NCBI GenBank assembly: GCA_030765065.1
Contig: CM060990.1
Coordinates: 218,211,290-218,275,289 of the forward strand
Origin: Deroplatys truncata
Lineage: Eukaryota; Arthropoda; Insecta; Mantodea; Mantidae
DNA length: 64,000 nt
Direction: 5' to 3'
Of the stretch, positions 7,753 to 48,656 are shown in pieces. The notes under the pieces are model-generated. The model was given only the letters and a program-made list of their open reading frames with translations, ran no database searches and had not been told where the DNA came from. Position numbers and translations under genes: made by a program. Every line of letters starts with the position of its first letter. Position 1 is the stretch's first letter.

Positions 7753-10112
7753 ACAAGCCTGCGAAGATTTTGTGGCATGGAGTAATTTACATCATAATGG
7801 TCAAATTGGATGCTCTGCTTTTGAAAATAATAGTTTTTGTATATCACATATAGCTTTTTGAAAAATTTTGTTTCAACACAAAATTGAAAGTTTAGTGTGC
7901 TAGTATTAACATCACTGCATATCCAACTTACAGCATAGTTGATTAAAATATGTAAACATGCTGAATATATCATGTTGCACCACTGTCTATCTCTGTTTAC
8001 AGGTAATGTTGAACCTATCTGATAAACATTTATTGCCTAAGGTATCAACAGGAACCTATCTTAGAATCCTCAGTACAGTTTTGAACTTCTCAGTGGGTCT
8101 CTCTTGAAGCCGTATTCTGTTGTGAATTTTATTTGTGGAAAAAATGGCTAGTTCAAGTGGTATATCTAGGAGGGGCTGTGTGAAAAATCCTAACAATTTC
8201 TGTTATGTCTGTAGGTGTTATGTGATAAAGCAACAGAAAAGAAACATTACTGCATGTATAAACAGTTTGTATCTGGCCTATTTTAAAATTAGGAGATTAA
8301 GACAAGAATTTTGCTCCTCATATTGTGTGTAAAAGTTGTGTAGAAAATCTAAGACAGTGGTACAAGGGAGTTTACTCCTCTATGCCCTTTGGTGTTCCTA
8401 TAGTATGGCATGAACAACAAAATCATTGTAATTACTTTTATTTTTGTCTGTAATATATCTGGATTCAATAGGAAAAACAAGGGGGTAAAGCAATATATAC
8501 ATTATATATCCAAACTTGCCAGCAATTAGGCCTGTGCCTCATGGGCCTGATGTACCTGTTCCATCACCACCTATGATATTACCAGAGTGTAGTACTGATA
8601 CTTCAAGTTTAGAAGATGATTTAAATTTGTTCCCAGACTTAGAAGATGACATTCCAAATCCATTGAGTCAGTCAGAATTAAATGATTTGGTACGCGATTT
8701 GGGTCTTCCCCCCCCCCAAAAAAAAGTGAACTTTTAGATTCAAGGTTGAAAGAAAACAATCTTTTAGGACCTAGAACAACTTTCTACTGGTACAGACATT
8801 GACAAGAGGAGCTCCAGAAATATTTTGTAAAGGAAGGGGAACTAGTGTATTGTTGATATATCCCTAACTTGATAGGTCATCTTGGAACAGCTTACGAAGC
8901 AAAAGATTAGCATCTATTTATTACCTCAAGCAAGAGAAGTCTGAAAGGTGTTCTGCTGCACAATAGCAGTATGTTTGCTTCAGTTCAAGTAGCTCACTTA
9001 CATCCTTTAAAGAAATGTACCAAAATTTGTATACTGTCCTAGAAAAAATTAAATATAATCAACACAAGTGGTATGTGTGCTGTGATCTTAAATTGTGCAG
9101 TATTTTATTGGGCCAACAAGCAGGGTACATGAAATTCCCATGTTTTTTGTGTGAATGGGGATCTGGAGCCAGAGAAAGACACTGAGGTGAAACTAATTGG
9201 CCAAAAAGAAAAGATTTAGTGCTAGGGGCAAAAAATATAATAAATTGCCCGCTGATTGACTCTCAAGAGGTTTTGCTACCTGTTACATATCAATATAGAG
9301 ATAATGAAGGAATTTTTCAAAGCTTTGGACAAATGCGGTATGCGTTTCCAACATCTTATTCAGAAATTTCCAGTGTTGTCTGAATGAAAAGAAAGAAGGC
9401 ATTTTTGACAGTCCACAGATTCACAAACTTGTGAAGGACATTCATTTTAGAAATATCATGACAGACATAGAGCTTCAAGCTTTGGACTCATTCAATGAAC
9501 TTACAAACAAGTTTTTGGGTAATGTTAAAGATGGCCAATGTGAGCATATTGTTAAAACAATGCTCAAAGGGTTAGACACTTGGATGCAATATGAGCTTAA
9601 AACTGCATTTTCTGCATTCGCATCTTGAACTTTTTTCCTGAAAACTTGGGTGCACTAAGTGAAGAACAAGGGGAGAGATTCCACTAGGACATAAAGGAGA
9701 TGAAACGAGGTACCAGGGTAGATGGGACGTCTCCATGATGGCAGACTACTTTGGAGTTTAATTAGAGACAACCCTCGTCAGGACCAAAAAGCCCAAGTCA
9801 ACTCAGCATTCATTTTCAACCAAGCAGAGGAGAAAATAAAATCATAAGGTGTTTTGGAATTTCTTAGTTCATTGTAAACTGTTGCATCTGTAGAATTGAC
9901 ATTATTTCTTAGTTTGGGCAATTTCACGCATTTTAAATTGTACTTAAAGACTAGAAATACTCAGATTTTACATATTTCCTTTCTGCGTGCCAAAAAAATT
10001 GTATTTGGTACAAAAAAATGGTAAGCAGATTTGAGTTCAGCATACCAAAATTAGGTTTACAGACCTGTTTATCCCCAGACCGCAGAAAAAAATTTTAAAT
10101 TTGCAGGCCTGT
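7753..10112 (+). mobile_element. Unclassified TIR transposon, copy 1
   Basis: The element begins ACAAGCCTGCGAAG and ends ATTTGCAGGCCTGT. These are imperfect terminal inverted repeats of about 13 bp whose consensus, from the second copy, is ACAGGCCTGCAAA. The flanks are ATAAC (7748-7752) and ATAAT (10113-10117), a near-perfect 5-bp duplication. A second copy lies inverted at 46552-48656. This copy split a LINE: RT sequence on the minus strand resumes on either side. It carries the remains of one ORF, described separately. Confidence 0.78.
8135..9840 (+). pseudogene. Uncharacterised transposase-like protein of the TIR element, broken
   Basis: Start ATG at 8143, giving MASSSGISRRGCV. The N-terminal part holds paired cysteines (CYVC, and a later CXXC after a frameshift), suggesting a zinc-binding DNA-recognition domain. 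An acidic, serine-rich linker follows at 8516-8737 (SLEDDLNLFPDLEDDIPN). The central and C-terminal parts include FYWYRH, a CDLK..LLGQQAGYMKFPCFLCEW stretch, HFRNIMTD at 9446, and FPENLGALSEEQGERFH with ADYFW near 9640-9760. The same order is readable in reverse in the second copy. I recognise this as a protein type scattered through insect genomes without a functional name, and I cannot place a DDE triad with certainty. At least four stops or frameshifts disable it. Size before decay would be about 600 residues. Confidence 0.65.
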
Positions 10113-10345
10113 ATAATCAATCAGCATACAATATTGTTGTTGCACAAGGTGTGCTCACTGGCAAATCATCGGTGTATACTAGACACAGCAGAGGTCCAAA
10201 ATTAAGAGCCCTGAAGAACCCCCACATTTTACTGCTTTTATAACTGAGTTAACATTTTTACCATTGATTTCATTTCTTACAGAATTAATCTGTTTCCTGT
10301 TGATTAAATAGGATTTAAACCACATATGCACTAACACTGCATTTA
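10113..10345 (-). pseudogene. 5'-side half of split LINE A (reverse-transcriptase palm)
   Basis: The minus strand reads WFKSYLINRKQINSV, then a degenerate 'GVLQGS-LGPLL' segment and a YTDDLPVS box (normally YINDLP). These are the RT motifs that should lie just upstream of the ADD box found at 7560. The two halves are therefore one element separated by the 2.36-kb transposon. Confidence 0.6.
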
Positions 10346-10583
10346 CCTTATTCCAGTTTAGATAATATGATGATGATTATAAATCTATAATAATAAATAA
10401 TAACTTTATTGCAGTCAATATACTCTTAAAAGAGCATCTGACACTGTCAATTATAGCTATACAATACAATTTACTTAATATTTACATATGTACATATATC
10501 CATTATAATTCAGTAATAGCATTTCTCTATCGGAATGATTAATATGGTTGACTTAATAATATTTACACAAGTTCACATATCCA

Positions 10584-12546
10584 TTATAATTCAGTAATAT
10601 TATACAAGTATTTCTCTATCAGGAATGATTTTAGGACAGTTTTAAATTTTGAATCTCTGGTATTCTTAATTGCAGATGGTAATTTATTATATAGTATAGC
10701 TCCCATTTTATATGGGTCCTTATTTGTTTGACTTTTATTCATGCTCACCCTATGGTAATTGTTTGATCTTCTCATATCGTATGAATGACAGTCTTTATTG
10801 AGTATGTTAAATTGCTTTCTATTTTTAACAAGTATAATGGTTTTAAACACATACAGTAAAACTACAGTTAGGATGTTTTGTGTTATAAATGTTTCACAGC
10901 AGGATTGCTGAAACCGAAGGTTGAACACAGTTCTTACGCACTTTTTTTGTATTTTTAATAATCTGTCCATATTGGTTTTACTTGTTCCCCCCCCCCAAAT
11001 TTCAATACCATATGTTAGATGTGGGTAAATGATGCCAAAGTATGCTACTTTAAGAATATTGGTGTCTCCGTATTTGGCTAATTGTCTCAATAATTACAGT
11101 CCTGTGTTCATTTTTTACAGACAATTTCTACATGTATGTTGTAAGATAGTTTCTTCTATGTGAATGCCCAGAAATTTATAGCTTCTTACCTGTTTTAAAG
11201 CAGTATTGTTAATGTTTACATTTATATTATTATTTTGAAATGTCATGAATTTTGTTTTCCCTATATTTAACTTTAGTCCATTGCGTAGGAGATAATGTGA
11301 TATTTCATCTGTTGCATTTGTCATTTTACCTTCTAAACATTCTTTACTTTCACTCCAGCCTATTACAGATGTATCATCTGCGTAGATGATCACCTTGCTG
11401 TTTTCTGGTTCTGGTATATTATTTATATACATAAAAAAAGTGTGGGTCCCAGTACTGATCCTTGCAGTACTCCCAATTTTACCAAATTATACTGATTTAA
11501 TGGTGTGTATAGTGTCACCTTTTTTCCAATTTATTTCTGTGCATTGCACCCGATTTTTAAGATATGTTGCTAGTAGTTTATTAATGTGTCCTCTGAAACC
11601 ATAGTATTCTAATATTGTCATTAAGTGATCATGGGACACAGAATCAAAAGCTTTGGAGAGGTCTAGGTAAATCCCTGTTGTGTTTCTACGGATATCTTTC
11701 AATTCTAACAATTTATGTACATATTCCGCTATAGCTGTGATGGTTGATAATTTATTTCTAAATCCATGTTGAAATTGATTAAGGGTATTATTAGATTTTA
11801 AAAAACTGTTTATCCTAGCTATAAGTACTTTCTCATAGACCTTGCTGAATACTGAGGTTAGAGTTATTGGTCTGTAATTACTGACATTTGTGTTTGAACC
11901 TTTTTTGTGAATAGGTCGTACCACGCTAATCTTTAATATTTCTCGGAATATGCCACCGTTCATTGAGTAATTTATTAAATGCACCAGTATACACAATTCT
12001 TGTTCGCAATGCTTTAGTGTTATAGATGATATGCCATGCCATCCCATCCAGAGGATTGCCGATTTTTAAAGTTACTTATTTTATATATTTCATCATTTGT
12101 CTCGTGCAAGTACAGGCTGTTCACAGCTGTATTGTCTTTAGTTTTCTTACTGTCTATGCTCTTAGTTATAGGACTATCATTAGTATTTATAAAGAAGTTA
12201 AATAATTTGCAGATTTCAGAAGGGTCATGTAGTACTTCCCCATTTTGGCTCATACATATATTTGAGAGTTCACCTATTTGGGCTTTACTTTGCTTGTTTA
12301 TAATACTCCACACAGTTTTTGTAGTATTATTGGAGTTCATTATTTTTTTTTTCCTATTTGTTCTGCTTTTAGATATATCAACACTTTCCGGTATTGCTTT
12401 TTATACTTATTATAGGTATTAATGTAAGCATTCAATCTGGTGGATTTAAAGAATTCATACATAGTTTTCATTTTATTTTTTAAGTGTAAAACTTCAGGCG
12501 GCAAGGTTAACTTCTCTTTCGTTTTATGTTTAACCATACTTTTCAA
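10584..12546 (-). pseudogene. LINE B reverse transcriptase
   Basis: The RT is spread over consecutive ORFs in different frames. 12546-12020 gives the linker and the beginning of the fingers, including NRQSSGWDG. 12047-11487 gives RPIHKKG, NYRPITLTSVFSKVYEKV, FQHGFR and the first catalytic aspartate in YLDLSKAFDSVSHDHL. 11432-11115 gives the intact palm box YADDTS and the thumb (RNGLKLNIGKTKFM). 11090-10584 gives the tail (LTYGIEIWGG, then LYNKLPSAIKNT near the end). The catalytic residues are preserved, but at least three frame breaks separate them. Confidence 0.8.
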
Positions 12547-12549
12547 GTG

Positions 12550-13600
12550 AGGGCAAGCTTCATTGAAGTGGAGAGTAATTTTTTTTATAAAAGCCTTCCA
12601 TTTTTTGTGTATGTTGTGTGTATTATATATCTCTGCCCATTCCTCTTTAGCAAGCCTATCCTTTAGTTTATCTAGGTTACATTTTCATGTGTCCCTAATG
12701 TGCCTGTATATGCTGTCTTTCATTTGGCTGAAGCAGTTGTAAATATCAATAATTTGACCCCTATGGTCTGACACATGAAATTCATTATTTATAGTGGAAA
12801 ATCTGTCTTTATTTAAATTTGTTATGTGATCTATTGAGCTGCTGGAGTGATCTGTGATTCTAGTGGCCCTTGAGAGACAATATTCAAGTAAAAGCTATCG
12901 AGGATATCCCCTAGATCTCTGTTATCCATGTCTACGTTAAAGTCACCTAGGATGATTATGTGTTGGTTGAATGTAATTTTGTGCAGTATATTTTCCAGAT
13001 GAATTAGGAACTCCTGTATACTTGAATTAGGGAATATCTAAACACCAAAAATGAGTACTTGTCCTAATTCTGTGTTTAGTTTTACTGCTGCTACCTCAAA
13101 GACCATCTCTACACTTAAGTTTTCTACCCAGTCTACCTTATTTACAATAATATCATTCCTAGCATACAGTAAGACTCCTCCACTTCTGTGAATTATACGT
13201 CAATGGGAAACTAATTCATAATTTACAAAGTTTACAGAATGTAATTGCTCCTTCCTTAGGCCATGTTCTGAAAGTACAACAACCTGAGGATTTGTCACAT
13301 TTAGGACTGTTTCTAATATTTCAACTTTATTGGAGACATATTGTGCATTTTGGTGGTATATTCTAAGGGTAGAGTTACTGTGCAGGCTGCTTTTATCATA
13401 GGATGAACACGAATTTATGGCTTGTCGTTGTATATTGTCTACTTTCCCAAATGAATTGAGTACAAGGGGTTTTTCTCTGCCAATGGTTTTTATTTTGTCC
13501 GAGAGGAGTGAACTTAAGAACCCTTTTCCTTTGTTGTTCAAGTGTAAGCCATGTCTGTTATGGTACTCATGTTTAAGGTTGCCGATGGCCACTACCATGA
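12550..13600 (-). pseudogene. LINE B endonuclease and upstream esterase-like remnant
   Basis: At 13390-13200 the frame opens an APE-like endonuclease (RIYHQNAQYVSNKVEIL..., then VVVLSEHGL, with the catalytic E). It continues in other frames to HIIILGDFNVDMDN near 12930. Just upstream, around 13510-13560, the reading RHGLHLNNKGKGFLS matches the DxxH-bearing C-terminal end of SGNH hydrolases found in ORF1 of CR1-like LINEs. The copy is 5'-truncated within that domain. Confidence 0.65.
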
Positions 13601-13765
13601 TAGTGTGGTCAACCGAATCAAATGCCTTATTTAAATCCATAAATATACCAAGTATAGACTTGCTAGTATCAAACCCCTCAAGCATTTATTTTGTAACGGA
13701 ATATTGGACATTTGTTATACTTTTGTTTCTCTTGAAACCAATTTGCTGTTACACCCCCCTCTAAA

Positions 13766-13810
<45 letters not shown>

Positions 13811-14500
13811 TTCAAGAAAAGATGCAATTCATTTGTACATTACAGTTTATAGTATTTTTGAGAATCCTGATAAAGGAGATATCAACATTATTTGGGTCAT
13901 CTTTTTTAAACATTATGACAATTCTGGTTGCCTTTAGGTTCTCTGGAAATTTTCCTGAAGAAATTGAACTATTGCATATCTTGACATTATAAAGCTCATG
14001 CAGTGCTTAATTATAAAGTATAGTACTTCATCAGGACCAGATGAGAAACTCTTCCTTTTGGAGTTGACTATTCTAATTAATTTTTTGTGTGTCACTGATA
14101 TTGGTATATGCTCTTTATCATTTCTATTAAATTTAGCATTTGTAATTTTATTATTATTTTGTGATAGCATTCTATTCACAGCTGTACTGAAATGATTATT
14201 GAAAATATTGGCAACTTCAACTGGATTTTTAACTATGTATTATCTGTTAAGAATAGAATTTTATATGTATCAGGCTTTGACTGGTTATTTTGCTCCTTTA
14301 TGATATTCCATATACTCTTGAGTTAAGACCATGCTCATCAATGTGCTCTTTCTTTGCTGCCTTTATTATCTTTCTACAGAGTTGCTTACTGTTTGAAATA
14401 TTTTTTGAGCCCATTGGTTCTATTTATTTTAATTATTCCAAAAAAGATTATGCATGTCCTTGCTGTAATTTATAGTTCATTCTGTGATCCAGTTTTACTT
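13600..14500 (-). pseudogene. LINE C reverse-transcriptase fragment
   Basis: Minus-strand RT fingers are readable at 14179-13934 (KSFSSGPDEVLYFIIKHC, then FLQENFQRT). After a (CA)n insertion, the palm-A box FMDLNKAFDSVDH follows at about 13690-13600. The fragment ends abruptly where LINE B begins, so the rest of its RT was displaced or lost when LINE B inserted. The first catalytic aspartate is present and the YADD box is missing. Confidence 0.65.
13768..13809. repeat. (CA)n microsatellite
   Basis: About 21 CA units inside LINE C between its fingers and palm-A segments. Confidence 0.95.
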
Positions 14501-14578
14501 TTATGTGCATAACCTTTATTTATTAATTTTTAGGGGAAGGCAGTATTAAAATAATCCATGAATGCACAGCGTAAGACA

Positions 14579-14976
14579 AAATCAATGAGCAACAGCCAGA
14601 GAGGGAGTTCAATTCAGAAAACATTGTAAGCATTCACTGAAGCTATGTTCACAATACAATTATTTAATACCACCCTGCATTCATTTCAAAGCTATGTGAT
14701 AAGTAGGAAGATGCCTTTCAGTTCGGTTGTATACATGGTAGCCCAACATTGAAAAGCACATGTCTCATAATTGGAATAACCTGGGTTCAAATCCTTGATG
14801 TACTTTTTTTATTATTTAAATTTTAATATGTTAAATATATGGCCATGCCATATGCTTTCCATGTATAAGATATCTATTAATTTTGAGACATTCATGCATA
14901 AAAACACATACAAATTACTCTTTGTTTCAAAATAATAGCCATATTTAAGAATTTTAAAGTAAAAAATTAAACCAAA
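14579..14976 (+). repeat. Left part of an inverted-duplicated repeat block, with a tRNA-like B box
   Basis: This sequence reappears reverse-complemented at about 54065-54402. It contains GGTTCAAATCC (about 14791-14801), a good Pol III B box, and a weaker A-box-like TGGTAGCCCAACATTG about 50 bp before it. That suggests a tRNA-derived SINE, although about 170 bp of conserved sequence precede the tRNA-like part, which is unusual. The homology runs on to 14976 and resumes at 17968, after LINE D. Confidence 0.6.
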
Positions 14977-15112
14977 TTCTCATTCTCATTTATTATCTGT
15001 CAATTAAAATTAAAAAATAATTCATGACATTGTCAGTACAAACAAAATAAATAATAAGATACAATATATACAATAGTATGAATTAATACATAATAATCAC
15101 ATATTAATAAAC

Positions 15113-16876
15113 TCATTTATGGAATAAAAGCAACCTTGAATACAATATTTTTTTCAGTTCCTTTTTGAATTGATTTAAATCATTTATGCTTTTTAATATA
15201 TGTAGGTAATTTATTATAAAAATTGCATACAGCAACAGTAGGTTTAGTTTTGAATAACTGGATTCTATGAGATCTGACATGAAAGTTTGTATTACCTCTT
15301 GTGAACTGATTATGAATCTGATTATTAACTGTTTCACAATTTACATTATGTCTTAAATACATAATAACTTCAAACATATATAAAGAGTATAAGGTAAGAA
15401 TATTTAATTTTACAAAACTATCCTTACAAGATTGTTGTGGTTTTAAACCCATCATCACCCTAATTGGTCTTTTTTGTAGAAGAAAAAGTATTTTAGTATG
15501 CTTATCAGCACAGTGACCCCAGACAGTTATTCCATAGGACAAATGTGGATAAATTAAACCATAATAAATGTTCATTAGTATACTTAAATCCACAACTTTC
15601 ACCATTCTTTTTAGAAGAAAAGTACTAGAGCCTACCTTATTACAAATTTTGTCAATTTGTATATCCCAAGTGAGATGTTCGTCAAGCATAATTTCAAGGA
15701 AGTTTGTATAATGACCCTTGTTAATATTTTCATTATTAACATTAAATTTTAGCTGAATATAGTTTCTGTTTTGAACCAGCATATATTCATAAAATCAGTT
15801 TTCTTTGTATTAATATGCAATTTATTTAAATTAAAAAACTGCGCAATTTGAATAATGTTTTGATTAGTGGAAGTCGCAAGTTTTTTGACAATTATCACTA
15901 GTGTTAACAATGGATGTGTCATCAGCATAAGCAATAATTTTTCCATCTCTTATAGTTATATCATTCATATAAATAATAAATAGAAGGGGACCAAGAATGG
16001 AACCCTGCAGAACACCATATTTAACATTTAGCATCTTGGAGTAATATGTATTGATTTGCTGACCACATTCACGAGTTAACTTGCTGTGTTCCATCACATA
16101 AATAGGACCTTATTAATCTGAGTGGAATTCCACGTATACCATATTGCTCAAGTTTAGTTAATAAAATATCATGGTCAACACAATCAAAGGCTTACTTAAA
16201 TCTAAAAATATGCAATTGTCGAACTCTCCCTTATCTAAACTGTCAATCAGGTATTCAACTATTTAAATTATTGCAGCTTTAATTGATCTCCCTTTTCTAA
16301 AACCATACTGAAAATTATTTAAAATCTAGTTAAAATATGGATAATAATTATTTTTTCAAAAACTTTAGAAAGAGTTGAAACCAAAGTTATTGAATGATAG
16401 TTGTCAGTCGAGTACATATCTCCATTTCTGTATAGCGGGTTAACAATAGGTTTCTTTAAGCAGTTAGGATATATTCCCAAGGTTATACTAGAATTAATCA
16501 GTTTAACTAATGGTTTTAAAATGCTATGAGCACACTGCTTTAAAAGAGTTGAGATGCCATCTTTACCAGAGGAACTTTTACTTTTCATTTTATTGATTCC
16601 TTTTAATAATCCTGCTTCAGAAATTTCAAGTAGATATATTGAATCGCAAATGTTATTACTACTTTTAATATGATCTAAAATAGTATCCTTATTACCTATT
16701 AATTTATATATGTTTTCAATAAAACTTTCGTTAAATAAATTACTTGCAATAGTTGTATCACCTATTTTTTTTTTATTCCTGACAATTAATTCAATATCTT
16801 CATGTGATTTACATTTACCATGCTTGATATTTATAACATTCCAAGCAGTTTTTGAGATATTACTTGATTTATTCAT
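15113..16876 (-). pseudogene. LINE D reverse transcriptase
   Basis: 16876-16319 carries the fingers (KSSSGKDGIS, ITLVSTLSKVFEKIIIIHI). 16097-15864 carries VLQGSILGPLLFIIYMND and the intact YADDTS box. 15782-15180 carries the thumb and tail (FLEIMLDEHLTWD, LSYGITVWGHCADKH, FYNKLPTYIK). The segment with the first catalytic aspartate, around 16200, is broken by frameshifts. Inactive as it stands, but all major motifs are recognisable. Confidence 0.8.
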
Positions 16877-16904
16877 TAACTTTTTATATAATTTGATTTA
16901 GTAT

Positions 16905-16985
16905 ACTTTATTAATTTTTGGTATAATAAATTGGTAAATTATAAATTGGTATAATTTATAATTTGGTAAATTATAAATATTTCTG
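16905..16985. repeat. AT-rich tandem and inverted repeat inside LINE D
   Basis: TAAATTGGTA and TTTGGTAAATTATAAAT units recur in both orientations over about 80 bp. They interrupt the linker of LINE D and could form a hairpin. Confidence 0.6.
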
Positions 16986-16999
16986 TCTTTTTTTATAGA

Positions 17000-17960
17000 T
17001 TAGTTAAACTATATATATTATAATAAAATTTTAATTGGTTTTTAGCTGTAATTATGTTTTTATTAATCCACTGCTTACCAGTAAAATGTTTTTAATGTTT
17101 TTATTTTTTAAAGGACAAGCAACGTCCAGCTAATAATTAAAAGTTGTGTAAAATTGTTCCCATTTTTTATTTACATCTATTTTATTATACATATCCACCC
17201 ATTGTTCTTTTTATAACATAGTACAAAAAGTCATTGTTAAAAAATTCATTTCTTGAACTTGTATATTTAAATTATTTGCAGTATGAATTTTAAGTGAAAT
17301 ATTAATTTGTAGTGCAAAATGATCTGACAAGTAACTCTTTAATAACATTAACATTGTATTGCTCAGAAGGGAAATTTGTAAGAATATGATCTATGACACT
17401 TGTAGTATCAACGACTCTTGTTGGCTCATTAACAGTAATTTTAGGATTATGCATGCTAGCTATATCAACCAGTAGCTTATAATTGCTATGCAATTCATCC
17501 CTATTTATGTTAATATCTCCCAATAAAACAAGAAATTTATTGAGAAGCTGTTAAAGTATCACTGTTAGTATTTGAAAAATTCTTTAGAATTACTACTAGG
17601 GGATCGATAACGTGAGATAACAATCTTGCCCATTTCTACTTGAATTTAAATGCCAACTATTTTGCATACTTTTTCAATGCTTTTGAATTTAATCCAGTCT
17701 AAAGGTTTGATTTTAGTTATTTTATTTGAGACAAGAATAACAGTTCCACCACCCTTATATAACTTTCTGTAGAAGCAAGTTGCATTACTATAAAATTACA
17801 ACATTTTATTTGATCTTCATTAACTCCATGCTCAGTTATAGCAAGAATATTTGGACTATTGTCATGCAAAAACACAAAGTTCATCTATTTTATTACTTAT
17901 ATACTGCATGTTTTGATGAATAATTCTTAATGTGGTAATAGCACTTTTTTTACTAAAGAC
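17000..17960 (-). pseudogene. LINE D endonuclease
   Basis: Readable pieces on the minus strand are LHDNSPNILAITEHG near 17860 (catalytic E), then MGDININRDELHSNYKLLVD at 17523, and TSVIDHILTNFPSEQYN at 17400. The last two are the GDxN and xDHI motifs of LINE apurinic endonucleases. The frame is broken several times. Confidence 0.7.
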
Positions 17961-17967
17961 AGACTCT

Positions 17968-19096
17968 ATTTCATTGACTTAATATTGGATGTGCAAACTC
18001 TGTCTCATTCTTCAGTTATGAATGGCACTGACATTATCATGCATGCCCACCTCATAGCCTTGGAGTTCTGCCTGATATGTTAGCAATGAACTGTCTTTTG
18101 CTATGGCTGAGTGCACACATAAAGACAAAGCTACAAGGAGATTTCTCCTTATGTTAATGAACGTTGTTGGATACTTCATGTCTCAGGCTGCAAGAGCACT
18201 TGAGGTCCCTATATCTATGGCTATGAGGTGAGTGTGATTATCCAGGGAAGGAATTGTTGGTTCTCAACCTGGTTTGAGTCGAAAATGTTTGTCCACTCCT
18301 CAGCAGGACACTGCATTTCTAGAAGAGGCAGACGGTAATCCCTTCCAGTGTGTGTCTACAATTAGAACTCTGGGTCGAACCACACAGCCTTGTATTGTTT
18401 GACTACAGCAGGGCTCTTTGCTCAATCAGTAGCTAAGAAGCAGCATCTTATGTCGCCTCACATTTGCAGAAGAAAATGTAAACTATAACTGGAATAGGGT
18501 TATATTCATGGATGAGTTGACATTTTCAACTACAAATGGGGGGGGGGGGTGGTAATTGTCTACCAACCCAGAGGAAAGCATTAAGAGAGACAATATTTTG
18601 CACAAATGGAACACCATGGTTACGTATCTGTATCATGTTAGGGTTGGATGTCATAAGATGATTTAGGTGTGTTGTGGCAGCTTAATGGTACATTAAATAG
18701 CCAAGAGTATAAGACATCCTTAAAACCTCATGTTTCTTCAAGGACTAGATATCCCTATGGAATATCCCTAGATATCCCAGGCCTACCCTGCCCACACAAG
18801 TTGGCAGGATTCAAACTGGTTCTTGCAAAGGTAAGATATCATACTGAGTGATTGGGCTCCTTGCTCATCAGATTTGAATCCCATTGAAAATGTGTGAGCA
18901 GAGGTGAAGAAAATTTTGGAGTTAAATTGGGCTGCAAGACAAAAGAGGATTTTTGGGATCAAATAAAAGATGCTTGGAAGTGTCCTCTCATGGAAAATTT
19001 ACTAGGAATTTGATATCATCCAGTAGATACTGCCCCGTAGAATGAGAGCAGTAATAGCAGAGGGATTACACATCCAATATTAGGTTAATTTCTATT
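17968..19096 (+). mobile_element. Tc1-like DNA transposon, copy 1
   Basis: Inverted termini with the shared core TAATATTGGATGTG lie near 17980 and 19070-19085. The interior reads as a Tc1-family transposase with stops. An inverted copy lies at 52940-54064. A G homopolymer at about 18538-18550 interrupts the coding region. Flanking homology with the second copy extends beyond both termini, so the element sits inside a larger duplicated block. Confidence 0.7.
18160..18990 (+). pseudogene. Tc1-like transposase, broken
   Basis: In shifting frames the plus strand gives FAEENVNYNWNRVIF, then MDE for the first catalytic aspartate (18506 region), a LWQLNGTLNSQEY stretch at 18675, and DLNPIENVWAEVKKILELNW near 18870, which carries the catalytic glutamate. 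The second catalytic aspartate region (normally QQDN) is damaged near 18775. Multiple stops. It cuts and pastes DNA in intact relatives. Confidence 0.75.
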
Positions 19097-19100
19097 TTAA

Positions 19101-34224: not shown

Positions 34225-34900
34225 CCCTCCTTAGGCCTGCGCTATCCTATCCATCTGCAGGTACCGCTGAAATCTCGGGATAACTGCGGCACACTCCTTC
34301 ACCCTAGTGCACTGGCCGCACTCTTTCGGGCAGGGTCTTCTTGGTATGGCATCCGCATTGGGCTGGCCCCTTCCTCTCTGATGCTCTGATGTGAAGTTGT
34401 ATTCCTGAAGCCTCTGGATCCAACGGGCTGTCTGGCCCTCCAGGTTGTTAAAGCTCAATAGCCAGGTTAAGGCGGAGTGGTCAGTTCTCAGGTGGAACGG
34501 CTGCCCGCACAGGTACTTAAGAAAATGTTCCAGCGCCTTCACAACTGCCAGGAGTTCCCATCGGGTAACGCAGTAGCTCTTTTCCGCCTAGGAGAGCGTC
34601 TTGCTGTAGTGAGAAATTACCCGCTCTTGCCCATCCTGGATATTACGCCTCCAATATCACTGTCGCTGATGTCGGTGTCCACGATAAAATCGCCGCCTGG
34701 ATGTGAAAAATCCAAAACATGCGCATTGCAGAGTGCTGACTTAAGCGCCTGGAACGCTTTTTCGGTCTCTTCTGTCCTCATGTAAGGCCGGTGTTCTTCC
34801 TTCTGACGAGTGAGGGGCTTCGTGATGTTGGAGAAACCTCTAACGAACGGCGGTAGTAGTTGCATAGGCCCAGAAAACTGCGCAACTCTCGTTTATCTTT
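34225..34900 (-). pseudogene. Gypsy RNase H
   Basis: 34865-34617 reads NITKPLTRQKEE, then FQALKSALCNAHVLDF and FIVDTDISDSDIGGV, which holds the first RNase H aspartate (normally DASDxGIG). 34542-34231 reads FHLRTDHSALTWLLSF and ARWIQRLQEYNF, with the second aspartate, then GQPNADAIPR. Frames are broken between the two. Confidence 0.82.
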
Positions 34901-35420
34901 CGGGCGAATCCAATCTCTCTCAGCTCGAGCCTTCTCCGGGTCCGTGGCCATCCAAGTTGGTGAGACTACGTGGCCCAAGTAGTTAACCTCCTTACAGAAG
35001 AGTTGGCACTTCTTCGCGTTCAGTTTCAGGTTAGCTGCTTGCAGTCTCTGTAATACCTTGATCAGGTTCTCTAGATCTTCGAAACTACTGCCAGTGGCGA
35101 TATCAAAGTACAGCAGGCAGACGTCGTAGGTCAATACCCTTATCACAGATTCCATAAGGCTGAAAAGTGGCTGGCGCGTTGCAGAAGCCAAAGGGTATAA
35201 CCGTAAACTGCCAAAGCCGTTGGCCGGTCGAGAATGCGGTGTTTTCCTTGTCTCTGGAATGCATAGCCACTTGCCAATATCCCGATTTAAGGTCCAAGAT
35301 CGATAAACACTGGGCGCCAGCAAGTGTGTCCAGGAGGTCGTCAATCCGGGGTAAGGGAAAAGTCTATCGGGTGACAGCGTTCAACTTCCTATAGTCCACG
35401 CAGAAGCGTAGCTCGCCGAT
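34778..35420 (-). pseudogene. Gypsy reverse transcriptase
   Basis: 35297-35103 gives MDLKSGYWQVAM with the first catalytic aspartate and VIPFGFCNAPATFQ. In the neighbouring frame CLLYFDIATGSSFEDLENL stands where the YLDD box belongs. The second aspartate of the pair is replaced by isoleucine or lost to a small indel, so the active site is broken. AANLKLNAKKCQLF, NYLGHVVS and LRSFLGLCNYYRR follow in the expected order. Confidence 0.82.
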
Positions 35421-37860: not shown

Positions 37861-37864
37861 TATA

Positions 37865-37879: not shown

Positions 37880-37880
37880 A

Positions 37881-38349: not shown

Positions 38350-38353
38350 GTAT

Positions 38354-39595
38354 ATACATCTAGTTACCATAGCAAAAGAGAGGTTAACTTCCATTACATA
38401 CTGCTCAGTGTGATGATACTTCTCATTTTTATCTACAAGACCTTTGATATAGCTTTTATTTAGAGTATTTCTATACTGCATGAATTGGAATTATATTTCT
38501 GCAAGGTAATGTGTTCCACACTGGCTTTGTACCAGCTAGGGTCAGAAAATGGATTTAGATTTGAAGAAATTCTCTCTCATGGTTAAGACTGAAGCCATAG
38601 ATCTTCAACTTGCCATGGTTCAAGTTCCTGACTGCGGTATAGAACTTTTCATATATGAGGAGTAACTTTTCAAAAAGCAATAAGTCCACAAATACAAATT
38701 TTACAGGAGAAGCCAAAAACTAATATTGAGTGATGTTTTATAATAATTGATAATTAAAGTACAGAGATTTATTAGGAATTCCAAACACAGTGAAATAGTA
38801 TAAGTGGGGAAGATCTCGCTCTTTATTTAAAAGCACAGTTTCTAAATGAATTTTGAAAATCTGTGGACTTGTTGCATTTTGCACCAACCAAAGGGACAAA
38901 ATGTGTTTTGAAACAAATTTATACAGAAATAATGCAAGAATCTGTTCTTCAATTTTTATTTTTAGCTAAATAATTGATACAAAGAAATCAGTAATTGAGG
39001 AGGATGTTCCCAACCAATTACTTTAAACAATACAATCAAAATCAGTCACTTGTTTTAATGGTTGCATACTGCTTCTTTGAAAAATGTCCTAACAGTATTT
39101 AAGTAATGCAAACAAAATTGTTAATTAAGGAGAAAGTTTTCAAATATTATTTAATGAATACTGTCAAAATTCTTACTCACTTTTCGTTAGCATTTTTGAA
39201 AAATATATTAAGCAATTCAATCAAAATCACTAATAATACATAAAGTTCTTTTCACACTTTATAATAAATAAGAGATTCAAAATTAAATTTGTTCCTAACT
39301 AATCTGCAAAGTACTTTTTGGCTTCAAACTTTATCTGAGGAATAAAATCAATATTAATAATTCACAAAAATCTTTAGATATTCTAAACAAATTGGTAAAA
39401 AATTATCCTGCTTGAAAATAAAGTGTAAAAACCTGTTTTAATGCACATATTAGAAGAAAAAAAAATCATGTGAGCATCATTAAAAGTAGTTTCACTGACT
39501 GTAATCGGATTTTAGTTAAAACTTTGAAATCTGAATGGATAGTATGTCTCTTAACTCCTCCTATTTGATATCCAGGTTCCTGCTTCAAGCAATCA
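38354..39595. other. No gene recognised
   Basis: AT-rich DNA without motifs or clear repeats between the Gypsy element and the DUF7869-like copy. Confidence 0.5.
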
Positions 39596-39599
39596 CACT

Positions 39600-41270
39600 C
39601 TACGTTCTCAACTTGCTCCTCTACATTGTTTGTTGCAACATCTTCTCTCTCAAAAATACATCAACATAAAATTTCAGGGTTTCATCCTCCTCCCAGCTAT
39701 CACCAAAATGTCGTTTCAGAATAGTGAGCAAGTCTTTCTCTTTTTCTGATTTTCTAGGGTATTTCAAACTGACATCTGGGTCAGGTATCTGATCTGCTGC
39801 TACACCTCTTTTTAGCAAGGAAATATAACTTTCTGATGAATCGTCCAGTCCGCATGAGGGCTCCATTTTAAAAATAGTTTTTCTTCCTATGGAATTTCGT
39901 TTTCAATATTACCTATTTCATATCTCTTATGCTCACCAGCTTCTTAAAATCACAACAAGGTCCTTGAAGTTTAAAATATTCCAGTCTATTTCTAACTGTT
40001 GAATATTGAACATTTTCTCATATTGTTCAAGAGTTAATGTTTCAGATTGTTTCTGAAGACTCTTCTCCACTGTGCCGAAAATGTGGTCTGCAGATAAGTC
40101 ATGACCATGCATGAGGAATGTATTGCAGATCTCTTCGAGCCTGGAGATTTCTTTAAAAGCCACCAATACAGAGAATGAACTATGTGGGCATTTTTGTTCT
40201 GCTCAGCGCAGCTGTCGGAAAATAATCTTATGTCTGAAGTGTGTTCTTCGTATTTTACTTGCTTAGAACATCTAATCAAAGTAGAAGCTACTTCATTTGG
40301 TCCATGGCCAGCCTGGTTTTCAGTCCAGCAATAGAAGTTTGGAGACATTTTTTGTCTGTAATGCAGAGAGCCTAATATAACAGTTGTTATGCATAATATG
40401 CCTCATCAATAGCAAGTTTTGAACTTGCTGTAGATCAAAGCTTAAAGACATGTTGGGCAGTTTCTCTTTCATAATTTTATAAAATTGTTTTGCTCTTATT
40501 TTATGGGTAGCAAACTCTGCTTGCATTCTGTCTTTTGCTAGAGTCTTTAGTGAGTTTCATTTAATGTTTCGTTCTACAGCAATAGCTACAGACATCTACT
40601 GCAAGATCACCAAATCCCAAATTAAAATTTTTAGAGATGTTGCTGAAGAACCACCTTTTTACCTTTCATGAATTGGCAACACTATCATTACACATTTTAA
40701 AGAGCTTTGTGATATTCATGTCCAAAGAAAGGTATAGCCTTTTACTTTTTTCTCTGTTGTAGTGGCTTTCTCTAATCCTCAAATTCGAAATGAACTTGAT
40801 CACGTTGTCTTTCTTTGGTATGTTTTGTTGTGCAGTTCCCTCCTCTTTTTTCAAGAAGGGCATTACCAGCAATTAGTGAGGCAGCAATACTATTAAGTCT
40901 GGTTGTTCCTATGCCAAATAGAACTCTAAAGAAACTTGGACCACATAGGAACTTGCTCACAGTTTAATCTCTTCTGAAACTTTGTAACTAGGATATTCAA
41001 TTTTCTGCTTTCTTTCCAAGGATACACAGTCATTTTGGGCTGGACACTGTCATAAGTGATGAAAGAATGCTGTCCTGCTGCTGCTGTTTGTTTACATAGC
41101 TATAGACCACCTTCCTGTTCCTGATAAGATGGTAGAATGGGATGCTACAGCATTTAAATCTTCCCTCCTTGTGTTCACAAGGCAGTTCAAACTCCAACAT
41201 TTCAGGGTCTCTATCATGATACCTCAAACAATTGAGACCATCAAGTGCAAAACTCATCTTATCCAAAATT
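39600..41270 (-). pseudogene. DUF7869-like transposase, minus copy
   Basis: Reading from 41266 leftwards: an N-terminal segment starting LDKMSFALDGLNC with KCCSIPFYHLIRNRK; FLCGPSFFRVLFGIGTTRLNSI at 40960; IRESHYNREKSKRLYLSLDM at 40780; ELPNMSLSFDLQQV at 40450; NFYCWTENQAGHGPNEVAST, then LFSDSCAEQNKNAHIV at 40250; and HGHDLSADHIFGTVEKS at 40110. These match in order the arthropod family annotated as DUF7869, taken to be transposase-derived. The aspartates in FSDSC and SADH are candidate catalytic residues. The C-terminal acidic part ends near 39621. At least four frameshifts. About 550 residues before decay. Confidence 0.65.
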
Positions 41271-41530
41271 TAAAAAAATTGAGCTAGACATGGGATTCGA
41301 GGCTTCTTGCAGTTCTCTACGAACTGGTGACTTTGGATTTCAACAAAACTCATCTAATACACCTGCAAGAGAGCCCTGAAAACTGCTGTTCAATGCAAAA
41401 CTCTTCAAATCCATGGTGGCGGTTGATGCAGAACTCATTTAAATCCTCTTACAATTCAGAGCAAAACTTGCCTTATCCAATATTGTTCCACTACAATTGT
41501 GTGGTGTGAAGAGCAAAACTCACCTTATAC
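41230..41530 (-). repeat. Cluster of six iterated 18-bp motifs
   Basis: The minus-strand motif GGATAAGGYGAGTTTTGC recurs with variations at 41247, 41343, 41395, 41428, 41461 and 41513 (left edges). Spacings are about 96, 52, 33, 33 and 52 bp. The first copy overlaps the start of the DUF7869-like reading frame and forms one half of a 35-bp inverted repeat. Confidence 0.7.
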
Positions 41531-41989
41531 AGCACTAAAAATATAGCAGTTTTGTTTCTCTGTTTCCCTACATTGGCAGTCCTGTGTGATTCCAACTGTT
41601 TTTAATTTAGTTTTAACTAGTCTAAGGTGCAGATCTGATATCCTGAAGTTGGTGGAAAGGATAGAACTAGGAAACGGGCATCCCATGAATTGAAACGTTA
41701 AAGAGAGAAGAGGGAAAGGTATGTATGCTTGAATTACAATTAAGTAGTATTCCTCTAATGTTGACAGATGAGACTCATCTAGGAATAAGCAGATGTGTTT
41801 ACAATATAGTCTCAATTGTTAAAGGCATTCAGCAAGCCTCGGCTCATGCTTGCTTGCTTGCTTGCCTGCCTGCAATCACAACAGCAGGTAATTCCAATGC
41901 AGTAACTTGACACAGGACATATGGAAATTCTACGAAGCCTTCTATAGCTGCAGTTCTAAAATTAAAAGACTGCATTATATTGACTTACT

Positions 41990-42890
41990 GTTCAACTGAT
42001 ATACCTAATCAGCAGCATGCAGTAAAAGATGATTCTAGGAAGGGGTTTACAACAAAGTATCACGTGAAACGTGTACTAGGTCTGCCAGTTCAGGTGTGTC
42101 AAACTTTTCTGTACATTTTGCAAATATCAAAAGACTGAGTACAAAAGACACCTTGAAACTGGAGTGGTGCCAAACAGATTCAGAGGTGGAGACAGGGTGT
42201 CACAAAAAATAGTAATAAGAGAGAATCTGTGATTAAATTCATACAGAACGTTAAAGTACTTGACGTCCATCATTGTAGCAGCAAAACATCAACACAGCAA
42301 TGCTTACCAAGGGAATTAAGCAGGTGATAGACATGATCTTTCCTATTCCTGGCCATTCATTCACCCCTCCCGATCGTGTTTTCGAGCTAATAGAGAAATA
42401 AATAAGGCCTGAAGAATAATTTGAAATCTACAAAAATCATGAAAAGGTAATCAGGCTATGGACAGCTGTATCTGTACAAGATTGGAAGTATGCTGCAAAG
42501 AAACATTGAAGTCACCAGGATCCAGGCATTTTAAAATAAAGCATCTAAACATATTTTACGTTTTACCTCAAGCAAAGTTCTAGTGAGAGGTGAGGCAAAT
42601 TATCACTCCAATTTGTGTGTAGGCAAGACCATTCTGAAGCGAGGCAAAACCTTACAAATGCATATTGCAAGGAATTTAGATGTAGGTGTAAAAGTAAAGG
42701 AGGAAAAAGTTAAAGAGGTCAACAATTTATTAAAAAAAGGTTGGCGATAACTGGAAAGTAAATGAAAGCCTGTATTTTAAGAGAATTAATATCTAAAAAC
42801 AATATTGCCAATGACGATAAAGAAGTAGATGCTATCTGTGAGTGTTTCTTGGATAGTGAGGAAGGACAACTTAGAATTTGATATGTTTGT
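41990..42890 (+). pseudogene. DUF7869-like transposase, plus copy (partial)
   Basis: The plus strand reads KYHVKRVLGLPVQVCQTF near 42060, then SVIKFIQNVKVLDVHHCSSK and TQQCLPRELS near 42230-42320. This corresponds to the VCK-TF...NT and ESHY-R...YL segments of the same family seen on the minus strand. It breaks off before the SDSC region. A last frame (DAICECFLDSEEGQLRI) ends at about 42882. Much more decayed than the minus copy. Confidence 0.5.
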
Positions 42891-43200
42891 TTTTGAACAT
42901 TAGTTATTAATACTACATTTTAAACATAACATATAAATTTTACAAGTCATAAGATGTATGCGATATGAAAACTGGTTAATTCTAGTGAGCAAACTATGAA
43001 AGGAGTGATTCATTGATATTCTTATGTGAAATTGGTGAAAAAATTGTAAAAATTTAGCTTTTTTTTAGCTAAAATGAAATCAGAAATGATTATACTTATA
43101 TAAATATTGCAAGAAGTCCTTTATTAACATTGTCCAATACAAATACTGAGAAGTAAATCTGAAAATGTTTGCACTTAATTGTAATTTAGTATTGTGTTTC

Positions 43201-43453
43201 CACCAAAACTCGCCAAATCCACTACCGTTGTGTGCAAAACTCGCCTTATCCAAAATTAAATTTTTATTTACCGCCATATAATTTGAGACTGATTTTCAGG
43301 AGAATACATGCATCTTTAAGGGTCTAGTCTGGACATTATTACATTAAGAGAATTTTCGAATGTTCTGCTGTTTGCCTAATTTTAGTTTTTTGCATTTTCT
43401 GAAAATTTGTTTTACCCAGATAAGGCGAGTTTTGCACTTGACGGCCTCAATTA
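43201..43453. repeat. Further iterated motifs and the inverted partner
   Basis: Two more direct copies lie at 43201-43220 and 43234-43251. An opposite-strand copy lies at 43419-43453. The last is a 35-bp inverted match to 41230-41264 and includes the AAGTGCAAAACTC and TTGAGGCC parts, not just the motif. Confidence 0.7.
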
Positions 43454-44492
43454 ATATGTAATTGCTTAAGTGGAGTTCGATCCACGGATTAAAGCATGGA
43501 TATGCCACTAGTAATAATTGTAATAAAAGGCAACTTAAAAAACTTCATTACAAAATTGTCTTTTAAAGCAGTTACCTTTCCGTCTGCTCCACTTTTCTTT
43601 TCACTATGCCCTTCTGCTACTTCCTAGAGCCAGAAGAATGGTCCCCTGTATGTGCACTTTCTTCCGTGTTCAGCACTTACAGAAACTGCAGGCTAGCACA
43701 AGAACACAATGCTGAACAACAAACCTGTCGCATATGACAATATGTTGACCACAGAACAGTTGATAAACACAACACTGTTGTGAGGGTTTGGAATGTTTGC
43801 TTTCTCAGGTTTATTGCTTCTTTTATTCTACTTTAGGTGCAACATACATTAGCAATTGTAACAAGCTGGACTTATTGCAGTTTGAACCAATTTCAATGCT
43901 GACTTATTGCGTTTTGAAACAAAGCCCATAATATGTACTTGATTTAGAGGGTTAAAAGTTGTGTTTTGAATCAAAGCAACACCGTAGCTCAATGCAGCCT
44001 ATCTTTTGGAGTAGGAACCCGCTTCAAACTAATTTACTTCCGTGAGTGGACTTATTGCATTTTGAAATGTCACTCTTTCTACGATTCTGCTTTCCTGGAA
44101 TAATTGTATCCTTTGAGTATATCATAAAATAAATGTAACATATAGTTTGGAAAAAGTAAAATTAATTTTTAGTGAAAAATTTATAATTCTAAATGATATG
44201 CATTTGTAAACATTTTACTAAGTAGTTCCCTAATACTTTATGTAGAAATTTCCAGCACAAGAAATTACAAAAGTATATTGCTTACCTTATTTTACTGCAG
44301 AAATGTGTGTAAAGTCTATGGGATCGGGCGTTGAGCCTTGCCATTGGTATTAGTGCAAAGATCAGTATTGGTTATCAACTGTTTGCCTATTCAATATTCT
44401 TCCTCCTATCCTTAATAAATTTATTTTAGAATCCTTAAAATGCATCAGAGAATTAATGCTATTCATAGCAATGCATAACATTTTATTTGCAG

Positions 44493-44629
44493 CAATGCAA
44501 AATAAACCAGTTGGTGGAGACCTAAGAGTGCCATCAGGAACCTGGATGGGTTATGGTTTGAGCCAGTCCAGTCCTACTCCAGAACTTGAGAAGAACTTCA
44601 AAGAATGTTTTGCTGCATCACTTAAAAAT
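44493..44629 (+). CDS. BicC: Internal exon of a Bicaudal-C-like gene
   Basis: The acceptor is TTTTATTTGCAG, ending at 44492. The donor is AAT|GTAATG at 44630. The frame reads MQNKPVGGDLRVPSGTWMGY and then GLSQSSPTPELEKNF. It enters with one base from an upstream exon outside the window or not recognised, and leaves in phase 0, matching the entry of the next exon. Bicaudal-C is a cytoplasmic RNA-binding protein with N-terminal KH domains and a C-terminal SAM domain. This segment belongs to the poorly conserved linker before SAM. The assignment to the same gene rests on phase, strand and composition. Confidence 0.6.
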
Positions 44630-46551
44630 GTAATGTATAAAATTATGAGTTATGCATAGTATGTATTGCATTCAAGTCACAGCCAAGATAATCGCAATTT
44701 TCACTGAAAATTTTCTATTCATTGTTACTATTTAAATTGCAGCTTCATACATTAAAACACAAATGTTCAGATCATTTAAGTGCCTGTTCACAAGGAGTAA
44801 ATGCCTTTAATCATACATTAGAATTGTTCAGTTCAAAAATTTGTACCTTTCCAGTAGAAACATAAGTTCTGTTACAACTTTGCAAAGTAATTTAAGTAGC
44901 AAATAGAAATTCACCGAACTTCAACATAATATAAAAAAGCACTATTTTAATTAAACATTTGCAAATTGGATTAACCAGTGCCCACTATGACACTAATGCA
45001 AGTGCTCTGATAGAATACTATTCATGTGTAGCAGCCTGTATGACATTTATATTCAAATTGATTACCAGTTGCATTAAGGACTTCAAGAGGTATTCACTCT
45101 TGTTTTGTCTAGATGGCTACCATTCTTCATCCCTGATTGACTCTGATGAGTTCTTAAATAATATAATTACCAAGGCCTGGAAGCTTAGTCAAATCTTACT
45201 GAGATTAACGTTGCACCAAGTATAGGCCATGATTGTAATCATGGACTATTGCAGATAGTGCAAGGGTTTAGATGACAGCAGATAAATAAACATTCATAGT
45301 TTTGAGAGATTTTAGTGAGAGCTGGTCACTGCAGTAGTGACATAAAAATGTATAAGAGAGGACGTCCAAAAGTTGTCACTGCAAATGTTGTTTTATCCAA
45401 ACATGGCAGTGTGTGTTTGAGCTGTGCTGGGGAGAATATTGTTTGTAAATTGAAGAACTTGGTGCAATAACCTGCAGTGCCATATTACCGCTAAAAATTG
45501 GTTAATTGATTTTTCTTGTGTCTCACAGATGTATCTAGTGTTCCTTCACTTGTCACATATAATATTCCACATAATAGCAGCAGAATATACAAAAGCTCCT
45601 TATTTATTTTCTCTATGGAAACTAACATATTTCAGAACAAGTATGCTCTGTAAATAAATAAATGACAATGCAGTAGGAAACCTGCTTATTAAACTTGCAC
45701 AGAACCAATGTAAATTTTTAACGCAGAGAGCTTTCTTGCCAGAAGAAGTTGCTCTATTAATTGAATTCTTGGGCATTTTAAAATTTCTATTTAAAAAATA
45801 AGGGCATTCTAATACTTTGTTTCTATGCTGTAACCCAAACTTAATAATGGTCATTGTAAATTTGATGCAGTAGAAACTAAAATATTCTGATTTTATTAAT
45901 TACATCACACAAATAATATTAGATTGCTCTTTTCTCAAAATTACAGTTTTTACATGTGCTTTTATGGAAATAGGGCAGTAAAGTATGATTTGCCAAATAA
46001 GGTGGAAAACCTACTTTAAGTATTTAGAACGTAAATACCTACTAGTATAAAAAATGAGAGGTATGCAAAAAATTTAATATGATTTTGTGTGTGCGCATCA
46101 GAAGCCCAATGCATCATCTGTTCCCAGGTGTCATGATGAGGAGCGAGTCATTTAGGTTTTGTAATTTACCACATCTTTATGTAAGATAAAGATGACAAAG
46201 TGTTTGCATGGACTGTGGAGGAAGAGCTAAAGTAAATAAATAAATAAATATACATATATATATATATATATCTATTAATCGTTTCTTTCAAGGTTATGTG
46301 CCTTAGTATTCAATGAAATAATAGCAAGTGCATCTATAGCAGTATAATCCTTGTTCCAATATTTGGAGAAATTATTAATTTGTAGGATGAAGTTTACCCC
46401 CAAAAGTTTAAGTTGACACAGTCTGAAACACCTTTTTGTCTTATATGTAATAAGATTTTAAGCTTCATTGCAATTATACTTGTCAAGTTTCTCTCTAGTG
46501 CATGCCTATATACAAAAGTAAGGCTATAAACCAATATCAGTCAAGGGTAAC

Positions 46552-48656
46552 ACAGGCCTGCAAATTTAAAATTGTTTACTGTGATACAGGGTTAATCAGG
46601 CCTGTAAACGTAATTTTGGTATGCTGAATTCAAATATACTTTCCAGTTTTTCAGATCATGAACCGTTTTTTTATGTCATGCAGAAAGGAAGTATGTAATA
46701 TTTGAGTTTATTTATAGTTTTTAAGTAAAATTTAAAATGCGTGAAATCATAAAAACTAAGAAAAACTCTCAATTCTACAGATGTAATAGTTTACATTGAA
46801 CTAGGAAATTTCAAAAATACTTACGATTTTCTCCTCTGCTTTGTTGAAAACAAATGCTGAGTTGACTTGTGTTTTTGATCTTGATGAGGGTTATCTCTAA
46901 TTAAACACCAACAGTAGTCGGCTATCATGGAAATGTCCCAATGACCCTGGTACCTAGTTTCCATCTCTTTTATGCCCTGGTGAAATCTCTCCCCTTGTTC
47001 TTCATTTAGTGCACCCAAGTTTTCAGGAAAAAATTCAAGATGCAAATGCAGAAAATGCAATTTTAAGCTTGTATTGCAACCAAGGGACTAACTTTTCGAG
47101 CATGGTTTTAACAATATGCTCACATTGGTCATCTTCAACATTACCCAAAAACTTGTTTATAAGTTCATTGAATGAGTCCCAAGTTTGAAGCTCTGTTTGT
47201 CATGATATTTCTAAAATGAACGTCCTTCATGCGTTTGTGAATCTGTGGGCCGTGAAAAATGCCTTCTTTCACTTTTGATTTAGACAAAACTGAAAATTTT
47301 TGAATAAGATATTGGAAATGTGGACCATGTTTGACAAATTGCTTCATATCCCTGATTTGATATGTAATGGGGTAGCAAAACCTTTCGTGAATCAATCAGC
47401 AGGTGATTTGTTACATTTTTTGTCCCTGGCACTAAATCTTTTCTTTTTGGCCAATTAGTTTCACCCTAGTGTCTTTCTCTGGCTCTAGAGTCCCATTCAC
47501 ACAAAAAAACATGGGGAATTTCATGTACCCTGCTTGTTGGCCCAATAAAATACGGTATACTTTAAGATCACAGCACTTGTACCACTTGTGTTCATAATAT
47601 TTAATTTTTTCCTAGAACAGTATACAAATTTTGGTACGTTTCTTTAAGGGATGTAGAGTGAGCTATTGGAACTGAAGTAAACATATTTCCATTGTGCAGC
47701 AGAAGCTTTTAGATTTCTCTTGCTTGAGTCAATAAATAGATGCCAATCTTTTGCTTTGTAATCTGTTCCAAAATGACCAATCAAGTTAGGGATATCACAA
47801 CAATACATTAGTTCCTTTCTTTACAAAATATTTCTGGAACTCTTCTTCTCAATGTCTGTACCAGTAGAAAGTTGTTCCAGGTCCTAAAAGATTTTCTTTT
47901 GGTTTTGAACCTAAAAGTTAACTGTTTTCTGTGGTAAGTATACTGCCTGCCTTGTTTTTCCTATTGAATCCAGATATATTACAGACAAAAATAACAGTAA
48001 TTAAATTAATTTGTTGATCGCACCCTACCACAGGAACACCAAAGGGCATAGATGATTTTCTTAGATTTTCTGCACAACTTTTACACACAATATGAGGAAC
48101 AAAATTCTTGTCTTAGTCTCCTAATTTTAAAATAGGCCAGATACAAACTCTTGATAAATGCAGTAATGTTTCTTTTCTGCTGCTTTATCACATAACACCC
48201 CAGACATAACGTAAATTGTTAGGATTGTTCACACAGCCCCTCCTAGATATACCACTCGAACTTGCCATTTTTTCCACAAATAAAATTTACAACACAATAC
48301 GGCTTCAAGAGAGACCTGCTGAGAGGTTTAAAACTGTCCTGAGGGTTCTAAGATAGGCTCCTGTTGATACCTTAGGCAATAAATGTTTATCAGATAGGTT
48401 CAACATTACCTGTAAACAGAGATACAGTGGTGCAACATTATATATTTAGCATGTTTACATATTCTAATCAACCATGCTGTAAGTCGGATATGCAGTCATG
48501 TTAATACTAGCGTACTGAACTTCCAATTTTGTGTTGAAACAGAATTTTTCAAAATCTGTACATGACTCCCAAAAACTATTGTTTTCGAAATCAGAACATC
48601 CAATTTGATCACTGTGATATAAAATATTCTGTGCTGCAAAATCTTTGCAGGCCTGT
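46552..48656 (-). mobile_element. Unclassified TIR transposon, copy 2
   Basis: The termini are ACAGGCCTGCAAA at 46552 and its inverse TTTGCAGGCCTGT ending at 48656. The flanks are GTAAC (46547-46551) and ATAAC (48657-48661), a near-perfect 5-bp duplication like that of copy 1. It is 2.1 kb and collinear with 7753-10112 in reverse. It sits within the host intron, antisense to the gene. Confidence 0.8.
46810..48270 (-). pseudogene. Transposase-like protein of the TIR element, copy 2
   Basis: From right to left: MASSSGISRRGCVNNPNN at about 48265, then FYWYRH near 47850, VYRILLGQQAGYMKFP near 47540, MKQFVKHGPHFQYLIQKF at 47350, VHFRNIMT at 47220, and FFPENLGALNEEQGERFHQG with MIADYCWCLIRDN at 47030-46880. 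The C-terminus ends RKS. Compared with copy 1, it lacks the acidic linker region (a deletion near 48000), which explains its shorter length. Stops and frameshifts occur throughout, so neither copy is active. Confidence 0.65.

Follow-up and report, generated by a model that had tools for sequence, protein, structure and literature searches.

A decayed family of Chapaev3-like DNA transposons with TWA target-site duplications in the mantis Deroplatys truncata

The window studied here, a stretch of 64,000 nucleotides from the mantis Deroplatys truncata (GCA_030765065.1, contig CM060990.1), carries two related transposon copies on opposite strands, and both, now decayed, very probably belong to a single family of the Chapaev3 group, cut-and-paste DNA transposons of the CMC/CMCT clade. 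This assignment is based on the anatomy of the element, its target signature and the order of its protein motifs, compared with published descriptions and not with aligned sequences. A preliminary description of the window had found the elements unassignable and had seen in them the best candidate for something undescribed; once the ends are placed correctly, the element shows the published Chapaev3 signature, and it looks like a new family, but of a type of element that has already been described. Other parts of that description are borne out: copy 1 (plus strand) aligns with copy 2 (minus strand) in two blocks of 87.5% and 84.7% identity, both have inverted ends, and the reading as a family of mobile DNA transposons, with inverted ends that are conserved and insertions that are real, is supported.

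Ends and target-site duplications were tabulated from 70 loci, overlapping ones included, which yielded 41 distinct copies with both ends, the two window copies among them. Over these 41 copies the element reads CACAGGCCTGC...GCAGGCCTGTG, with a terminal inverted repeat of 14 bp, CACAGGCCTGCRAA. Both window copies had been located correctly in the preliminary description, their exact ends had not: at its boundary the element is preceded by A-TWA-C and followed by G-TWA-T, so that the C and the G belong to the element and the true ends lie one base further out. Each window copy has one terminus in which the outermost base of the repeat is mutated. At the corrected boundary, the 3-bp flanks match in 30 of 41 copies versus 551 of 1640 swapped pairs (a background of shared composition), and where TWA stands on both sides the two agree in 29 pairs out of 29 (14 TAA, 15 TTA; Fisher p = 1.3e-8). 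A 4-bp match is seen in 1/41 copies. The 11 copies lacking a 3-bp match (L003, L008, L009, L022, L027, L033, L037, L051, L056, L065, L077) include lost or miscalled ends and simple point mutations. The base before the duplication is A in 35/41 copies and the base after it is T in 39/41. The duplication is 3 bp, TWA, mostly in the target A-TWA-T, in keeping with the TAA-type preference originally proposed. The 5-bp duplication proposed along with it has to be abandoned: flanking 5-mers match in 0/31 copies at the earlier boundary and in 0/41 at the corrected one, the one-base error in end placement having made a TWA duplication of 3 bp look like one of 5 bp. As for the extremities, the 5' end is CAC in 30/41 copies (8 of the other 11 are one base off) and the 3' end GTG in 29/41 (7 of the other 12 are one base off), CAC and GTG being the consensus.

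The insertion site of copy 1 gives a second view of the duplication. Its two flanks, joined with a single TAA and run against the genome, retrieved 36 partial relatives other than the site itself, 29 matching the left flank and 7 the right. Twenty of the 29 left-flank relatives stop 5-20 bases beyond the insertion point, the 7 right-flank relatives start within 6 bases of it, and none of the 36 covers both flanks in full. Six of these relatives were fetched; five match the left flank and are paralogous empty sites, reading CAATAATCAATCA in three cases, CAATAATTAATCA in one and CAATTATCAATCA in one. A single TAA or TTA thus stands where the window has TAA-element-TAA, which shows insertion with a 3-bp duplication. 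Copy 1 sits on, or close to, a boundary between repeats, with a reverse transcriptase resembling that of a long interspersed nuclear element (LINE) on its right (RVT_1, E = 3.3e-17); that the insertion split a LINE, as had been suggested, is not proven, since none of the 36 flank relatives spans both sides fully. For copy 2, the joined flanks match only themselves in the genome, and no empty site was found.

A majority consensus built from 24 copies is 2,385 bp long and contains a single uninterrupted frame (405-2108) of 567 amino acids in one exon. The long open reading frame attributed to both window copies is intact in this consensus only, stops and frameshifts cutting it in each of them. 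The N-terminal paired cysteines that had been reported are present in the consensus (CYVCG, CKSC, DCYFC), and so are all three of the motifs singled out at the time, HFRNIMTD, EEQGERFHQ and MADYCW, some of which are altered in each window copy: copy 1 keeps HFRNIMTD, has EEQGERFH followed by a stop and reads MADYFG, and copy 2 has HFRNIMTN, EEQGERFHQ and IADYCW. Motifs follow one another in the order D261, D315, C334/C337, H383, H491/H496 and E509/E510/E513, in which the cysteines form a C(2)C, H383 is the LH within PPLHIKLG, H491/H496 make an H(4)H and the glutamates sit in EEQGERFHQ. D261 and D315 are candidate catalytic residues.

A 3-bp TWA duplication is also what a PIF/Harbinger-type element would leave, this group being defined by a Harbinger-type DDE nuclease together with TWA duplications. 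Such an origin is almost certainly wrong here, given the CAC...GTG ends, the single frame of the consensus and the succession C(2)C ... H(4)H. Membership was rejected: the TWA duplication is found and no Pfam match to a DDE nuclease at E <= 10 goes with it.

All Chapaev3 elements examined in PMC4079192 have a TWA duplication between A and T, Chapaev termini are given there as CAC and GTG, the Garfield transposase has C(2)C, LH and H(4)H, and, Merrow and Garfield apart, Chapaev3 transposases mostly appear to be single-exon. Chapaev3 sits within Chapaev, in the CMCT clade, according to PMC12730594, where the order C(2)C then H(3-4)H is reported for that clade, as in our consensus. The TWA duplication, the A/T context, the CAC...GTG ends, the C(2)C/LH/H(4)H set and the single exon are all found in the mantis family. 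The complex N-terminal zinc finger of Chapaev3 ("Chapa", PMC4411706) might correspond here to the paired cysteines and a sub-threshold zf-AD match. PF06918 (DUF1280), equated with Chapaev and grouped with RAG1 in PMC3985635, is silent in the host genome and equally in every control genome, so that its silence carries no information. The preliminary description had stated that its proposal would fall if the consensus belonged to a catalogued superfamily; by its signature it largely does.

Several results weigh against this assignment. Neither the consensus nor three rows from diverged sister lineages (see below) match any transposase family in Pfam at E <= 10, the hits obtained being sub-threshold or due to chance (zf-AD, E = 0.012, residues 33-79; Fur_reg_FbpB, E = 0.18). 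The PDB, searched with the consensus and with a four-row profile, returned no RAG1 or Transib at E <= 10, and no named Chapaev3 protein was found in the collections searched, hence none was aligned. C(2)C survives intact in 1/5 of the sister rows and D315 in 1/4 of those that cover it, the rows being decayed and in part misframed. Copy 2 itself is an exception to the target signature, as TTA stands on both of its sides but within G-TTA-C and not A-TWA-T. Other searches were also silent: NCBIfam gave no match and no transposase, viral_contigs, genome_contigs and phages held no relatives (three viral_contigs entries reached E = 0.007 at best, in a locus-only search and around the very motif that had selected them), and a literature search for the motif strings gave no relevant match.

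The original proposal, a superfamily not yet described that makes 5-bp duplications, would agree with the absence of any curated family model above cut-off, yet it is very unlikely, as that duplication is missing at either boundary and the testable published features of Chapaev3, the Chapa zinc finger aside, are present. We likewise consider it improbable, if somewhat less so, that this is a family of EnSpm/CACTA proper, which belongs to the CMC clade as well, with a chance preference for TWA targets. EnSpm has CAC...GTG ends, a 3-bp duplication and C(2)C ... H(3-4)H in common with our family (PMC12730594, in the portion that deals with them), but TWA between A and T is the signature published for Chapaev3 (PMC4079192), and the length, the single exon and the LH motif fit Chapaev3 as well. 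The Pfam search found no EnSpm transposase either, Transposase_21 (PF02992) included, which is weak evidence because this family is described as mostly plant (PMC3985635). With its probable membership of the Chapaev3 group, a repeat left unnamed by Pfam (nothing above cut-off) and NCBIfam (nothing) is now placed in a described group.

Chapaev3-like elements are numerous and diverse in this host, with the main family and four sampled sister lineages. A degenerate pattern for EHGERFHQ occurs at 186 places in the genome and at none in the control; five of these hits and one second copy were fetched, the motif that served to choose them not counting as independent evidence. L077 is a variant of the main family, and the others, which carry the GERFHQD motif, form four diverged lineages (L073; L074 with L078; L075; L076; contigs C1-C16 of G000), whose amino acid identity over covered positions is 40-52% with the consensus and 29-44% from one lineage to another. 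In these rows, each a single copy, decayed and in part misframed, the LH histidine persists in 5/5, D261 in 3 of the 4 covering it and H(4)H in 3/5. Taken as single loci, L073-L076 have best inverted repeats no better than shuffled sequence, and L077 scores 19 versus a shuffled maximum of 18. In the L074/L078 pair, L078 shows a probable 3' end, ...CAGTG|TAAT, and no 5' end was found in the pair; in L076 the inverted repeat, about 19 bp long, is symmetric and comes without a clear duplication.

The genome searched comprises 4.29 Gb in 818 contigs. Copy 1 gave 53 matches at 40 distinct places, with 40 of 1,385 first-look candidates scored; identity was 100% for the window copy itself and 81-88% elsewhere. 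Within the gene, a 24-mer that 24/24 aligned copies carry with at most 2 mismatches occurs at 378 places (control 1), and another near the 3' end, present in 23/24, at 495 (control 0). These two counts suggest a family of about 380-500 places, some of them fragments, without a large burst of short derivatives keeping the 3' end. Divergence of the 24 copies from the consensus is 6.8%, 6.5% and 6.3% at codon positions 1, 2 and 3, so they have decayed without visible constraint, and CpG sites diverge by 34.8% versus 5.8% for other sites, suggesting germline CpG methylation in the host. Among loci L001-L069 there is no stop-free tblastn match over the whole frame, and the longest stop-free match, among the 25 longest listed, is of 368 amino acids. 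With both window copies broken and decay equal at all codon positions, the family looks dead as judged from the copies examined, and the wider interest is modest because these copies are broken.

Two side observations concern contig C16 of our numbering, which holds the window. This contig (707 Mb, 16.5% of the genome) carries 25 of the 40 distinct scored places (p = 8e-11), an excess that may be biased, as places were picked by similarity to a C16 copy; among the 100 exact 24-mer hits listed, C1-C15 account for 78 and the initial 429 Mb of C16 for 22. As a guess, this contig could be a sex chromosome. Also on C16, L029 (G000:C16:344173758-344178251) is a rearranged or nested pair, in which a long family copy adjoins, at locus position 2968, the first 1,037 bases of an inverted second copy.

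Table 1. Coordinates in the window of the two transposon copies, their target-site duplications (TSDs) and reverse transcriptase remnants
Feature	Position	Strand	Remarks
Copy 1, Chapaev3-like element	7752..10113	+	2,362 bp; decayed, almost full-length; terminal G -> A
TSD TAA, left of copy 1	7749..7751	+	flank table; empty sites
TSD TAA, right of copy 1	10114..10116	+	flank table; empty sites
Transposase gene remnant, copy 1	8144..9836	+	consensus residues 4-567; stops, frameshifts
Copy 2, Chapaev3-like element	46551..48657	-	2,107 bp; internal deletion of ~0.2 kb; outermost C -> T
TSD TTA, 5' side of copy 2 (minus-strand reading)	48658..48660	-	flank table
TSD TTA, 3' side of copy 2 (minus-strand reading)	46548..46550	-	flank table
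Transposase gene remnant, copy 2	46827..48268	-	consensus residues 4-567, broken
Reverse transcriptase remnant	11487-12047	-	RVT_1 E = 3.3e-17
Reverse transcriptase remnant	57977-58627	-	RVT_1 E = 3.2e-12
Reverse transcriptase remnant	34778-35344	-	RVT_1 E = 2.6e-05, under family cut-off

What was observed directly, namely the termini, the duplication of 3 bp, the preferred target, the empty sites of copy 1, the open frame of the consensus and the succession of motifs, is consistent with the following cycle. A single-exon DDE transposase of 567 amino acids would bind the 14-bp CACAGGCCTGCRAA ends and excise the element, which would then be joined, across a stagger of 3 bp, to a target A-TWA-T; fill-in of this stagger would give the TWA duplication. 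We infer the binding to the ends, the chemistry of catalysis, the fold and which residues exactly are catalytic.

The two ends of the consensus might also differ in their internal architecture. Behind the outer block CACAGGC comes TGCGGCAC, 12 bp further in at the 5' end and 22 bp further in at the 3' end. Allowing for CpG-type changes, this inner block lies at position 20 of the 5' end in 21/24 copies, and at position 30 of the 3' end in 14/24, with 4 more at 29 or 31. RAG recombination signals have 12/23 spacers, and by analogy the two ends of this family could be bipartite and asymmetric and the synapsis of Chapaev3 ends might follow a 12/23-like length rule, an idea that we regard as a long shot. 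The inner block was found post hoc and is statistically weak, the same exact length arising in 74 of 2000 dinucleotide shuffles and a 9/10 match in 121 of 2000, and the symmetric inverted repeat of L076 speaks against a general 12/22 asymmetry. Separately, a nearly palindromic terminal decamer (ACAGGCCTGT-like) at 2375-2384 of the consensus recurs at 2331-2340, 44 bp inside the 3' end (10059-10068 in copy 1), without counterpart inside the 5' end; the inner decamer is perhaps a putative second binding site for the transposase.

How does the family compare with known systems? Transib and RAG1 share the CMCT clade, and a sequence search of the PDB gave no chain of either at E <= 10; Transib duplicates 5 bp versus 3 bp in our family, and Transib membership was rejected, with no 5-bp duplication in 41 copies. 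Garfield and Merrow, Chapaev3 families described in PMC4079192, have the same TWA duplication between A and T and the same CAC...GTG ends, their transposases being encoded in two exons, unlike the single exon of our consensus. Garfield_BM, at 2,289 bp with a transposase of 556 amino acids, carries the C(2)C, LH and H(4)H motifs that are also found in the 567 residues of the mantis protein (PMC4079192). Conan and the other Repbase Chapaev3 entries, compared like Garfield and Merrow by description, have the same duplication and target signature (PMC4079192).

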